From NCBI RefSeq assembly GCF_030811555.1, contig NZ_JAUSQZ010000001.1, positions 2,725,241 through 2,789,240 of the forward strand: DNA of 64,000 nucleotides. The letters are read 5' to 3'. Origin of the DNA: Kineosporia succinea (GTDB lineage Bacteria > Actinomycetota > Actinomycetes > Actinomycetales > Kineosporiaceae). Position 1 is the stretch's first letter, and every line of letters begins with the position of its first letter. Positions 5,234-9,348 of this stretch are shown here, piece after piece. A model generated the notes under the pieces. That model did not search any database. It was not told the DNA's origin and worked only from the letters and a program-made list of their open reading frames with translations. A program made the translations under genes and the position numbers.

Positions 5234-5875
5234 GTGAACGAGCCGATGCCCGCACCCGCGCCGGAGATCGGGGTGGGGCCCTGGGAGGGGCCCTGGCCCG
5301 ACGACACCCGCTACGACCGGGAGCTGCTCGAGCAGGGCGACCGCCGCAACGTCCTCGACGAGTTCCGGTACTGGACCGTCGAGGCGATCGTGGCCGAGCT
5401 CGACACCCGCCGGCACCCGTTCCACGTGGCCATCGAGAACTGGGCTCACGACCTGAACATCGGCTCGGTCGTGCGCACGGCCAACGCCTTCAACGCGGCG
5501 GGCGTGCATGTCGTGGGCCGCCGCCGTTGGAACCGCAGAGGTGCGATGGTCACCGACCGCTACCTCCACGTCCACCATCACGAAGACGCCGAAGCCCTCA
5601 CCACCTGGGCCGGAGCGCACGACCTGACCGTGATCGGCATCGACAACACCCCCGGATCGGTGCCGATCGAGACGGCCACCCTGCCCCGCGACTGCCTGCT
5701 GGTGTTCGGCCAGGAAGGGCCGGGCCTGTCAGAGGCGACGCTCGGCGCGTGCTCCCAGGTGCTGTCGATCACCCAGTTCGGCTCGACCCGTTCGATCAAC
5801 GCCGGGGCGGCCGCCGCGATCGCGATGCACGCCTGGGTGCGGCAGCACGCGGTCATTCCTCCCGCAGCGCGCTGA
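5234..5875 (+). CDS. TrmH/SpoU-family RNA 2'-O-methyltransferase
   Basis: This enzyme should transfer a methyl group from S-adenosylmethionine to a ribose 2'-OH in tRNA or rRNA. SpoU motifs appear in order: ENWAHDLNIGSVVRTANAF (motif 1), LLVFGQEGPGLSE (motif 2) and SITQFGSTRSINAGAAAAIA (motif 3), the last two forming the trefoil-knot cofactor site. The GTG at 5234 is chosen over the open frame from 5186 because a CAGGAT element lies 7 bases upstream and the extra residues look non-coding. That gives 213 residues. The 3' end overlaps the convergent sigma-like fusion gene by 23 bases. The RNA target is unknown. Confidence 0.88.
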   Translation: MNEPMPAPAPEIGVGPWEGPWPDDTRYDRELLEQGDRRNVLDEFRYWTVEAIVAELDTRRHPFHVAIENWAHDLNIGSVVRTANAFNAAGVHVVGRRRWNRRGAMVTDRYLHVHHHEDAEALTTWAGAHDLTVIGIDNTPGSVPIETATLPRDCLLVFGQEGPGLSEATLGACSQVLSITQFGSTRSINAGAAAAIAMHAWVRQHAVIPPAAR

Positions 5876-6800
5876 TCTTCCCGTCCGGCCCCAGCCGGAT
5901 CCAGGCGTAGGTCTGGCCTCCGGGCGTGGAGCGGTTGAGGGTCTGCACGAGTTCCTCGGGGGCCGTGACGCCGGAGTCGTTCAGGGTCAGGGCGGCGTCG
6001 GGCCGGAACACCAGCTGCCGGGCCGGGTCGGTGGGCCCGTCACCGATGCGCGGGCGGCTGTCCGGATCGTAGACGTGCGGCTCGAACGTCAGCCGTACCG
6101 ATCCCTGCTCGCTGCGGCCCGCACTGATCCGGCCGAAGGCCAGGCCCGGGTCGGTCCACGGGGCGCTGCCGATCGGTGAGAGATCAATGGTGGACGTGGT
6201 GGTCGCCCGCGCGGGCACCGCCACCGGGGTGGGTTCCCGGGAGGACGGGGGCATCGAGTTGCCCAGCCCGATCGCGAGCAGGGCGGCCGCGACCACGCAC
6301 ACCGCGGCCACCACCCAGCCGGCCAGACGGCGCCGGCGCAGCCAGAGGCCGCGCCGGGTGACGGCGGCCAGGTCACCGGGAAGCGGGCCGGCCGCCCGCA
6401 GGTCACCGGGCCCACCAGGTGCGCCGGGTCCGGTCGGGTCGCCGAGCTCTTCGAGTTCCTCGTCGAGCAGCACGTCCCGGCTGCCGTCCGGACGACGCTG
6501 CAGCATCTCGAGCGCCTGGGTGCGGGCGGTCATCGAGGCCCAGACGACGGGCGAGTCACCACCGATACGCCGCCACCGGGCGTGGGCCCGGGCCAGCGCG
6601 CCGAGCGTGACCTCACGTGCGGCCGGCCGGCTGCCCAGCTCGGAGTACGCCGCCGACCAGGCCGCCCGGTAGAGCTCGGGGAAGAGCCCGGCGAACGCCT
6701 CGGGCCGGCGCCGGCCACCGGCGGAGGACCCACCCCCGGCACCCGCTGAACCTGTTGAGCCCGCTCGGCCTGCTGTGCGGGTCGATTCGGTGGTCGTCAT
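5853..6800 (-). CDS. Membrane protein with sigma-region-2-like domain fused to an extracytoplasmic domain
   Basis: I do not recognise a named family. Residues 34-102 (FAGLFPELYRAAWSAAYSEL, then ARAHARW and MTARTQALEMLQRR) align with region 2 of the neighbouring ECF sigma factor, but there is no region 4. An acidic Gly/Pro linker leads to one membrane helix (about 159-180). The outer part (181-315) contains LAFGRIS and ends YAWIRLGPDGKISALREE, matching the outer domains of the two proteins encoded at 7176-7838 and 8426-8992. The inferred topology is a cytoplasmic sigma2-like domain tethered to an outside sensor. It is separated from the sigma operon by 375 bases and converges on the methyltransferase gene. 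The function is unknown; regulating the ECF system is a reasonable guess. Confidence 0.8.
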   Translation of the reverse strand: MTTTESTRTAGRAGSTGSAGAGGGSSAGGRRRPEAFAGLFPELYRAAWSAAYSELGSRPAAREVTLGALARAHARWRRIGGDSPVVWASMTARTQALEMLQRRPDGSRDVLLDEELEELGDPTGPGAPGGPGDLRAAGPLPGDLAAVTRRGLWLRRRRLAGWVVAAVCVVAAALLAIGLGNSMPPSSREPTPVAVPARATTTSTIDLSPIGSAPWTDPGLAFGRISAGRSEQGSVRLTFEPHVYDPDSRPRIGDGPTDPARQLVFRPDAALTLNDSGVTAPEELVQTLNRSTPGGQTYAWIRLGPDGKISALREE

Positions 6801-7175
6801 CTCACCTGCCGTTTCCCGGTCCGTTCCGGTCGCTGCGCTCGTGCTCGCGCGTCACGCTACTGGTCGGAGGCCGGACATTTCCCGCGATCGCGGCACGCCG
6901 CCCGGCATGTCAGCCGCAGGGGCGAGGTGCCGCTCAGGTGTACCGGCGATGGTCTGCACCCTTTCCGGCCCTCACGACACCCTTTCCGGACCACCGCGTC
7001 CTGGGGAGAACCACCACCGGTGATCCAACCGCGTCCGCCCGGCACCTGTGAGCCCCCTCTGCCGGGCGATTGCCGACCGGCTGCCGAACGATGCGTTCCG
7101 GCGAACCGATTGCCGTGCCGCTACCGGCGTGTCGCCGAGGCCGCGGCCGCCCGCGGACGTAGGCCCGTACCGGCC
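6801..7175. other. 375-base intergenic region with 12-bp direct repeat
   Basis: No gene is visible. On the minus strand CCGGAAAGGGTG occurs twice, at 6989-6978 and 6968-6957, exactly 21 bases apart (two helical turns), about 160 bases upstream of the sigma2-fusion gene. This spacing suits a dimeric regulator, but no family can be assigned. Confidence 0.4.
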
Positions 7176-7838
7176 TCAGGAGACGAACTGCTCCGACAGC
7201 GAGCTGATCGAGCCGTCGGAGCTCCGGCGGAACCAGACGTCGGTCTCGGCGTTGCCGAACTCCTCCTGGTAGCCCTTCCAGTTCTTCACCATCTGCGCGA
7301 CGGTGATCTGCTTCCCCTCGGGGAAGGCGTCGCCGTCGGGCATGAAGAGCAGCACGTTCGCGCCCTTCACGGTGGCCTTCGGGTCGAGCCGGAACTCGGT
7401 CGGCTCGGTGCCCTCCTTCTTCCCGCTCAGGACGTCGCCCAGCGGGTACTCGCCGCCGTTCGCCTCCTTGGCCTCCTCGCCCTGCAGGAACCAGCCGGGC
7501 TGGATCAGCAGGGTCAGGGAGCCGTCGGCGTTCTCGGTGATGTCTTGCAGGTAGCCGAAACTCACGCCGTCTTTCTGCTCGGTCGGGTTCACCGGGATGA
7601 GCGAGTAGTCGGGCGGCGGCGTGGCCGTGACCGTCGCCGCCGGCACCACCGAGGGGGAGTCGGGGGTGCCGAACGGATTGCCCAGCACCACCACGATCCC
7701 CAGCACCACGGCCGCCGCCACACCGCCCGCCCAGGCGGCCCGGCGACGGCGCCGGATCCCCGTGCCCCGGTGCACGGCCTGCGCCATCGCACCGGGGGGA
7801 GGGGCCGGCACGTCGTGGGGCCTCAGGTCGTCGAACAT
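7176..7838 (-). CDS. Single-pass membrane protein paired with ECF sigma factor (putative anti-sigma/sensor)
   Basis: The 220-residue product has a short cytoplasmic part (1-33) ending in five arginines, one membrane helix (about 34-53) and an outer domain. The outer domain has YSLIPVNPTEQKDGVSFGYL and ends DVWFRRSSDGSISSLSEQF; it is clearly related to the secreted protein at 8426-8992 and to the outer part of the sigma2-fusion protein. Its ATG lies one base after the sigma factor stop (TGAcATG), so translation is almost certainly coupled. The position suggests control of the sigma factor, but the cytoplasmic part is too short for a normal anti-sigma domain and lacks the HxxxCxxC zinc motif. 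I therefore call it a putative sensor partner only. Confidence 0.85.
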   Translation of the reverse strand: MFDDLRPHDVPAPPPGAMAQAVHRGTGIRRRRRAAWAGGVAAAVVLGIVVVLGNPFGTPDSPSVVPAATVTATPPPDYSLIPVNPTEQKDGVSFGYLQDITENADGSLTLLIQPGWFLQGEEAKEANGGEYPLGDVLSGKKEGTEPTEFRLDPKATVKGANVLLFMPDGDAFPEGKQITVAQMVKNWKGYQEEFGNAETDVWFRRSSDGSISSLSEQFVS

Positions 7839-7839
7839 G

Positions 7840-8349
7840 TCAGACCTCCCGCACTTGCGTGGCGAGATGGCCGCCGAGTGTGGCCAGTCCCCGCTGGGCG
7901 TGTTTGCGCACGGTGGTGACCCGCATGCCCAGGGCCGACGCGGTGTCGGCCTCCGACTGGTCGGCCAGGTAGCGCAGCACGATCACCTCGCGCTGCCGCC
8001 GGGGCAACCGCTCGATCGCCGCGGTGAGGTCCATCCGGTCTTCCACCCGCGGGTCGCGCGAGGGGCGCTCCGGATCGTCCGCACCCAGCACCTCGCGGTG
8101 CCGGACCTGCCTGCGGGCGATGTCGATCGCTTGCGTGTAGGCGGTTTTCGCGACCCACCCGTGCGGGGACTTCCGGATACGTCCCCACCACGAGTAGGCC
8201 TTCGCCATCGCCTCCTGGGCGGCGTCCTCGGCCTGGGCCTGCGACCCGAGCACCTGGTAGGCGACGACGTACGCCTTGCGCCACAGCTCGGGGAAGAGCG
8301 ACTCGTAGTCGCCCGCCGCGCTGGGAGCCGCACTCCCGACGTCCGTCAT
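7840..8349 (-). CDS. ECF RNA polymerase sigma factor, SigE-like family
   Basis: This 169-residue group IV sigma factor directs RNA polymerase to a small regulon. Region 2 spans about 16-85 (SLFPELWRKAYVVAYQVLGS, then EDAAQEAMAKAYSWW) and region 4 about 104-158, with RLPRRQREVIVLRYLAD and the helix-turn-helix SALGMRVTTVRKHAQRGL. There is no region 3, as expected. It resembles the SigE-type ECF group common in Streptomyces. The next gene starts one base after its stop. A secreted protein gene lies 76 bases upstream on the same strand and shares a domain with the downstream membrane partner, so the three genes probably form one signalling unit. Confidence 0.93.
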   Translation of the reverse strand: MTDVGSAAPSAAGDYESLFPELWRKAYVVAYQVLGSQAQAEDAAQEAMAKAYSWWGRIRKSPHGWVAKTAYTQAIDIARRQVRHREVLGADDPERPSRDPRVEDRMDLTAAIERLPRRQREVIVLRYLADQSEADTASALGMRVTTVRKHAQRGLATLGGHLATQVREV

Positions 8350-8425
8350 CGCACCGCCGCTTCCCGCTTCTCCCCGTGAGCCCGGCGAGAACTCTAGTGG
8401 GGTTCGCGGCTTTTGCGGGCAAGCC

Positions 8426-8992
8426 TTACGGGATGAACTGCTCGGCCAGCGCGGTCACCGGGCCGCTGTTCGTGCTCGTGTCGGTGTGCCGCAGCCAGAC
8501 CGGCACCTCCTTCGTCTCGAGCTTGCTGAAGTTCTTGGCCAGCTGCTTCGCCGTGATCGCCTTGCGCCCCACCGTGTCGGGCTGCCCCAGCAGGTCGTAG
8601 GCGCCGATCAGGCTGGCCTTCCCCGCCACCGTGTAGGTCGAGGTGTCGAGCGACTCGTCTTCCGCGACGAACCAGTCGTTGGGCGGCGTGATGCCACCGT
8701 TGAGCAGCTTGGCGGCCTTGCCGTCGTAGAACTCGGCCTGCTTCACGGTGATCCGCAGCTTGTCGTTCTTCAGGCTCACCCGGGTGACGTAGCCGAACTC
8801 CAGGCCGGTCTTCGCGAAGCCGAGCGAGTCGGTGGCCTTGGCCGGGATCGCCGCGTAGGAAGTGGTTTTCGCGGGCGTCGAGACGGCGGCCGAGTCGTTG
8901 TCCAGGGCCTGGGCGGAAGAGCCCACGGCGGTGAGGGCGCCCGCTCCGAGAGCGACGGCGGCGACGGCGAGTGAGATACGCTTGACGGACAT
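8426..8992 (-). CDS. Secreted protein sharing the extracytoplasmic domain of the sigma partner
   Basis: The start at 8992 has a GGAGG site 6 bases upstream (CCGGAGGAAAACCATG) and opens a typical signal peptide (MSVKRISLAVAAVALGAGAL) with probable cleavage after SSAQA at residue 29. The mature 159 residues contain LEFGYVTRV, YDLLGQPDTVG, ITAKQLAKNFSKLE and the ending VPVWLRH..VTALAEQFIP. These match the outer domain of the membrane protein at 7176-7838 (VSFGYL, ITVAQMVKNW, DVWFRR, SLSEQF). The protein has no membrane anchor after cleavage. No enzymatic motif is visible. A soluble ligand, decoy or competitor for the sensor is my inference. Confidence 0.85.
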   Translation of the reverse strand: MSVKRISLAVAAVALGAGALTAVGSSAQALDNDSAAVSTPAKTTSYAAIPAKATDSLGFAKTGLEFGYVTRVSLKNDKLRITVKQAEFYDGKAAKLLNGGITPPNDWFVAEDESLDTSTYTVAGKASLIGAYDLLGQPDTVGRKAITAKQLAKNFSKLETKEVPVWLRHTDTSTNSGPVTALAEQFIP

Positions 8993-9268
8993 GGTTTTCC
9001 TCCGGGTATCGGTCAGCACTGGATCAGGACGGGAACCACTTCGCGAGGGCGGTGGCGGCAACCACCGCTCTCGCTGCTTTTGCCCTGCCGGGCAAGGTCT
9101 TCCGGTCGTGTTCCCAGCCGGACCTCGGCGGCCCCCATCGGGAGCTCCGGTGCGTCGGTGCCGACTGCGAAGACATCACTAAGACGTTCTGGGGCCCACC
9201 GAACAACGACACGACTTCGGTCACGAATCGGTCACGGTGATCCGGGCGCCTCTCGCCCCTCGGTGTTC

Positions 9269-9296
9269 TTGCTCCTCGACGCATACTCGGTATAGC
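9269..9296 (+). promoter_or_regulatory. Candidate padR promoter
   Basis: TTGCTC (9269-9274) and TATAGC (9291-9296) are separated by 16 bases. The -10 box overlaps the first candidate PadR operator, which suits autorepression. Confidence 0.45.
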
Positions 9297-9319
9297 TTCC
9301 TTCTCGCCATACCGGGTAT
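9283..9319. promoter_or_regulatory. Pair of ATACNNNGTAT palindromes, candidate PadR operator
   Basis: ATACTCGGTAT (9283-9293) and ATACCGGGTAT (9309-9319) share the same half-sites, lie 26 bases apart and sit 30 bases before the padR start. PadR repressors bind AT-rich dyads and usually repress themselves and the adjacent transporter. Confidence 0.6.
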
Positions 9320-9348
9320 GCACTCGAGCCAGGGGAAGGGGGTCCGGA

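Follow-up and report, generated by a model that had tools for sequence, protein, structure and literature searches.

Why is one extracytoplasmic domain encoded three times around an ECF sigma factor gene, and what could each copy bring to signaling? The question is raised by four genes, in the order D, S, B and A, on the minus strand of the window, i.e. the stretch of 64,000 nucleotides analysed here, which is held by an 8.07-Mb single-contig genome (G000) of the soil actinomycete Kineosporia succinea. D (8426–8992, minus strand) encodes a signal peptide and a free outer domain; S (7840–8349, minus strand) an ECF sigma factor, SigE-like, with sigma2 and sigma4; B (7176–7838, minus strand) a single-pass protein made of a 33-residue tail, a transmembrane segment (TM) and an outer domain; and A (5853–6800, minus strand) a chain in which a sigma2-like region (residues ~34–113) is followed by a B-like cytoplasmic tail (~114–162), a TM (~163–182), a stalk and a shortened outer domain (~220–315), without sigma4. 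The cluster is flanked by a PadR gene past D and by a gene for a SpoU-type methyltransferase past A; no RNA element was found between 5100 and 9700, where Rfam gave no match at E ≤ 1. Comparisons within the genus cover five congeners, G001 (K. rhizophila), G002 (K. mesophila), G003, G004 (K. babensis) and G005. Note that the home-made gene caller behind the neighbourhoods and partner counts given below did not recover A at its full length, either in the window or in locus L053, and left some sigma genes uncalled.

An earlier note on this DNA had proposed that A, B and D carry the same outer domain, on the basis of an early motif (LAFGRI, VSFGYL and LEFGYV) and a late one (YAWIRLGPDG, DVWFRRSSDG and PVWLRHTDTS), and the open reading frames and all these motifs are indeed read in the sequence where it had placed them. 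Pairwise alignment is enough to relate B to D (score 154, the largest of 1000 shuffles reaching 59) but not to place A, whose alignments with B (score 55; 1 of 1000 shuffles as high) and D (score 45; 12 of 1000) are weak, so that the homology of A was settled with profiles, for which sequences of congeners and of relatives from the same family were used, to the exclusion of K_G11, a near-copy of K_G9. Profile against profile, B versus D-type gave 99.5% (P = 3e-22), A versus B 89.6%, A versus D-type 91.1%, and A versus all others 97.0% (P = 1e-10); the three scores obtained for A were 62.9, 40.4 and 41.5, compared to maxima of 19.4, 19.2 and 19.5 over 40 column-shuffled targets each. Shuffles and profiles rule out a chance likeness: the outer domains of A, B and D are homologous. 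The profile comparison, a check that the note itself had named, thus upholds the idea of a shared domain for B and D, the copy in A being homologous but shortened.

Structure prediction, another check named in the note, came out likewise. The AlphaFold model of the D outer domain is a confident β-barrel (pLDDT 87.4, pTM 0.84; 7 sequences) and that of whole A, in which the tail is poorly ordered, is weak (pLDDT 66.7, pTM 0.39); the order of strands and helices is the same in the two outer parts, except for one helix–strand piece (H47–53/E63–67) that A does not have. The motif FGRISAGRS.QGSVR is conserved in the outer domains of all six A proteins; the outer-domain tryptophan is gone from A in two genomes. 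The search for a solved relative or a known fold gave no significant match, the best PDB sequence-profile hit reaching 0.037 over 22 positions and the best fold match E = 0.2, with OB folds recurring among the weak matches. With the A model, the best fold match had an E-value of 0.021, and the best 50 of 872 matches are, judged by their titles, mostly OB-fold and NTF2-like chains, with no sigma factor among them. Pfam contains no match to B or D at E ≤ 1, NCBIfam none to D and one weak match to B (0.063), located in the tail and TM, and no description of the domain was found in a literature search of limited coverage.

S is an ECF sigma factor, both sigma regions scoring above their Pfam cut-offs (34.9 bits versus 24 for Sigma70 region 2 and 56.2 bits versus 25.7 for region 4_2). 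We term it SigE-like only, because its best NCBIfam match, TIGR02983 (SigE family), scores 120.4 bits, under the curated cut-off of 141.55. A single base separates the stop codon of S from the start codon of B, the single-pass protein that the note had described as coupled to the sigma factor; the 33 cytoplasmic residues it had counted are found in the sequence, and the zinc anti-sigma motif (Hx3Cx2C) is indeed absent, B containing no cysteine at all. Class I anti-sigma domains are described as four-helix domains of 101 residues on average, those of less than 50 residues having been set aside (PMC7406223); with its 33-residue tail and no Pfam match, B falls outside this class, and no anti-sigma family of Pfam or NCBIfam was matched by sequence. 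With 33 residues before the TM, the tail does lie within the length of class II (<50 residues), whose member CnrY is described as an example of a short tail able to hold a sigma factor, the first helix contacting sigma4 and the second sigma2 (PMC7406223). By this analogy, B is a candidate anti-sigma factor of a class II-like (CnrY-like) kind.

The note had found the module to be of a type it could not name. As far as the S–B core is concerned, it can be named: short-tail single-pass proteins are common beside SigE-like sigma genes. Of the 14 SigE-like loci that score highest in G000 (L079–L092), 13 include, next to the sigma gene and on the same strand, a gene for a protein whose single predicted TM begins at residue 29–54, L084 being the exception and L088 having its partner upstream. 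Elsewhere in the class, a downstream short-tail neighbour (TM start at 39–64, mostly with an overlap of a few bases) is present at 13 of 26 sigma loci and absent from the other 13, the 26 being the best locus of each of 27 genomes minus L161, where the sigma gene was uncalled, and including two near-copies from one genus (L167 and L169). Overall, the partner tails are about 28–63 residues long, with the TM predicted in all these counts by a simple hydropathy window. A literature search of limited coverage found no test of these short-tail partners as anti-sigma factors. A separate observation is that, in L079–L091 of G000, where 12 of 13 loci have short-tail single-pass partners, the domain search (E ≤ 1e-3) found no further copy of the outer domain.

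A descends from S and B. The note had described it as a sigma2/TM fusion; both elements are present, but it missed that S and B are joined in A without sigma4. More specifically, the A profile aligns with S plus B from end to end in a single alignment of 259 columns (P = 3e-28), interrupted by one large gap of 79 residues, from residue 94 of S to residue 3 of B, that spans sigma4 and the stop codon, and by smaller gaps, chiefly the piece absent from the outer domain of A. The best matches of A, besides A itself, are S genes. In a sigma2 tree of 34 rows, the six A and the S rows (three plus a duplicate) form one group (100/99), and A alone another (100/97), with a long-branch warning that extends to the point where the A–S group joins the rest. 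The sigma2.1 stretch LFPEL[WY]R is present in 3 of 3 S and 5 of 6 A, and in none of 24 other sigma rows. As to the tails, none of 500 shuffles was as good as the A–B match in any of 18 pairs; among 12 other partner tails of G000, those of L080 and L086 match the A_G5 tail and that of L080 alone matches the B_G2 tail (0 of 300 shuffles). Read from these alignments, A is S and B joined, minus sigma4 and the intervening stop, at a junction whose exact position they do not fix.

Lacking both sigma4 and the region 2.2 glutamine, which is retained by most relatives (26 of the 28 rows other than A, 27 of these 28 being distinct, versus none of six A rows), A probably does not work as a sigma factor. 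Its sigma2 match (12.3 bits) lies under the cut-off of 24, which together with the missing sigma4 sets it apart from ECF sigma factors, and its incomplete sigma part sets it apart from working fused sigma/anti-sigma ECFs. A sigma2.1 stretch that is kept and a 2.2 glutamine that is gone would be expected of a part retained for protein contact rather than for transcription. The sigma2 helices are modelled at a block pLDDT of 64–88; docking of sigma2 on the tail is unsupported by the model (pTM 0.39). A search for A-type fusions across the phylum, with the best five candidates per genome scored, returned matches to A_G1 at E ≤ 0.001 in 40 of 396 genomes. Fourteen of these loci were viewed and showed no such fusion, a weak negative given that scoring; each of the five on which the sigma profile was run (L130, L132, L134, L137 and L141) contains a sigma ORF (E ≤ 8.2e-33). 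A sigma2-only fusion was not found described in a literature search of limited coverage.

The A reading frame is open in all six Kineosporia genomes. D, S, B and A are found together in G000, K. mesophila and G003, the only genomes with S at 88–100% identity, the best match in the other congeners being 32–41% identical. K. rhizophila and K. babensis have A alone at the locus and D-like genes elsewhere (two and one, respectively, 42–56% identical to D), apart from sigma genes. In G005, which has no D-like match, a B remnant lies beside the open A frame (L060, about 6993–7232), so that a block loss is visible there. This remnant establishes that the S–B–D block was lost in at least one lineage; for K. 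rhizophila and K. babensis, we infer that it was lost as well, rather than gained late elsewhere. Three genomes retain A without having an S ortholog, so that whatever A does in them must be independent of S. Simple Nei–Gojobori dN/dS values, computed on GC-rich genes, indicate tight constraint on S (0.11–0.22) and faster evolution of A, B and D (0.54–0.71), still below 1, three neighbouring genes giving 0.02–0.33. Over whole-gene pairs, A is unevenly constrained (0.27–0.68): its sigma2 part reaches 1.03 in the closest pair, which differs by very few changes, and its TM exceeds 1 in two pairs. The stalk and the tail of A vary in length between genomes.

Conserved elements, all read on the minus strand, precede three of the genes. 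Upstream of S, CCACTAGAGTTC (8389–8400) is shared by all three genomes that have S, but is not seen at the loci fetched from the other three. Upstream of D lie GAACGTCTTAG (9179–9189), a candidate promoter part found in the three S-bearing genomes only, and GACCGAAGTCGTGTCG (9207–9222), exact copies of which occur only in these three genomes, one in each. With up to two mismatches, the D upstream block gave 61 matches versus 34 for a control pattern, but 30 of them in the three S-bearing genomes versus 31 in the others, so that no S-linked regulon was seen. A promoter motif shared by D, S and A was dropped as a candidate, no convincing one having been found by eye. A is preceded by three SGCA direct repeats with an 11-bp period (7060–7085) in all six Kineosporia genomes, which are related to one another; such a triple occurred in 0 to 9 of 2000 first-order random sequences of like make-up. 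What makes it telling is its conservation rather than its count, as the window contains one triple where 0.27 would be expected, and one or more turn up in 25 of 100 shuffles. OmpR/PhoB-type regulators bind repeats with a spacing of this kind. Finally, two near-palindromes, GCATACTCGGTATAG and CATACCGGGTATGC, are found at 9281–9321, between D and the PadR gene, and also in the alignments of congeners; they are likely PadR operators.

The outer domain is sparse outside Kineosporia. At E ≤ 0.001, B and D used as queries each hit 9 of 58 relatives, a count that includes the own genome; several of these matches span just the tail and TM or the N-terminus. A domain profile matched 5 of 394 genomes of the class, own included, with at most the ten best candidates per genome scored; in G000, this profile recovers B and D and misses A. 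The three G000 copies at E ≤ 1e-3 all lie within this cluster, and a search of named genomes with two narrow patterns returned four loci, all from Kineosporia. The note had tied the domain to sigma factors, named a search beside SigE-type ECF genes of other genomes as a check, and taken occurrence mainly away from sigma factors as refuting its reading. That is the situation outside the genus: none of seven loci (L061–L063 and L071–L074), chosen because the match spans the outer domain, contains an ORF of at least 40 residues matching the SigE-like sigma profile at E ≤ 1e-3, L062 ending 0.6 kb past the gene. As a control, the same profile recovers S and A wherever a locus contains them; it detects no sigma gene in L054, L055 and L059, which carry the separate D-like genes of Kineosporia. 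Outside the genus, the domain is part of lipoprotein-like, secreted or single-pass proteins. In two same-family genomes (L061, 5404–6351; L062, 5443–6573), it ends single-pass proteins with long N-terminal parts made of QGGYP repeats.

Altogether, the explanation that we favor, with a probability of about one half, combines an S–B sigma/anti-sigma pair, a secreted tuner, D, and a membrane-held pseudo-sigma, A. S would be the ECF sigma factor and B its membrane anti-sigma partner, whose short tail would hold S at the membrane, as described for the class II factor CnrY. The B outer domain, a predicted β-barrel with weak, mostly OB, fold matches, would act as the sensor, and a change in what it binds would set S free. 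D would be a second, secreted version of this sensor domain, its production probably controlled by S, that competes for or carries the same ligand as B and thereby tunes the signal; the evidence for this control is the conserved upstream blocks. A would have arisen from a tandem S–B copy through loss of the segment encoding sigma4 and of the stop codon that separates the two genes. Held at the membrane, it would compete in sigma/anti-sigma contacts through its sigma2 face and tail, its outer domain reading a related signal. A more specific proposal, which we put forward tentatively, is that A is a functional pseudo-sigma, a sigma/anti-sigma chimera formed when sigma4 was excised from a tandem S–B copy, which has persisted beyond its parents in half of the species sampled and now controls other SigE-like switches from its place in the membrane, with a promoter of its own.

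A could instead be a decaying relic of the fusion, in which sigma2 is left over and just the outer domain, or nothing, still works. Its uneven constraint, its sigma2 score under the cut-off, the changing length of its stalk and tail and the missing tryptophan in two genomes are consistent with decay; however, six open frames out of six, sigma2 helices that are still modelled, the FGRISAGRS.QGSVR motif and the upstream repeats retained in all six genomes, and the roughly equal evolutionary rates of A, B and D make us regard this explanation as rather unlikely. More improbable still is a tethered regulator whose sigma2 part, once cut free, would act at RNA polymerase or promoters in the manner of IutY. 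Against it stand the missing sigma4 and the loss of the 2.2 glutamine from all six A proteins, and IutY is described as a sigma factor that becomes active upon removal of its extension (PMC8999054); in its favor, A resembles the fused ECFs described there in combining a sigma part, a tail, a TM and an outer part in one chain.

The sensing role of the outer domain is also open to another explanation, namely an envelope-binding or structural module without sensing, with D being a secreted protein that merely adjoins S. We consider it doubtful, as all three G000 copies sit in this cluster and B directly follows S, although the kinds of proteins that carry the domain outside the genus, with a sigma gene nearby in none of seven cases, and the D-like genes located apart from sigma genes in K. 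rhizophila (two) and K. babensis (one) would suit such a module.

The cluster lends itself to natural tests of a common arrangement, short-tail single-pass proteins adjoining many SigE-like sigma genes: species with and without the S–B–D block can be compared, and in the fusion sigma2 and the tail are preserved while sigma4 is gone. A looks like a natural experiment in the evolution of sigma/anti-sigma signaling pairs. Among known systems, S and B resemble the TIGR02983-type SigE-like sigma factors of Actinomycetes and their short-tail partners in gene order, coupling, tail length and, in many cases, an arginine-rich end before the TM; what sets the cluster apart from them is the outer domain that B carries, the free copy of it encoded by D, and the fused gene A. 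The likeness of B to CnrY lies in a short tail, encoded beside an ECF sigma factor gene. The fused sigma/anti-sigma ECFs (IutY; ECF48, ECF52 and ECF53) are described as containing a sigma part, a TM and a further part in one chain (PMC8999054), a layout that A shares, whereas it has neither sigma4 nor a zinc domain. Finally, the SigE–CseABC system of Streptomyces is described as comprising a SigE-type sigma factor and an extracytoplasmic protein, CseA, and as working through a two-component system (PMC8999054); the present cluster is similar in associating a SigE-type sigma factor with an extracytoplasmic protein, but differs in that the genes called between positions 1 and 16000 include no two-component system.
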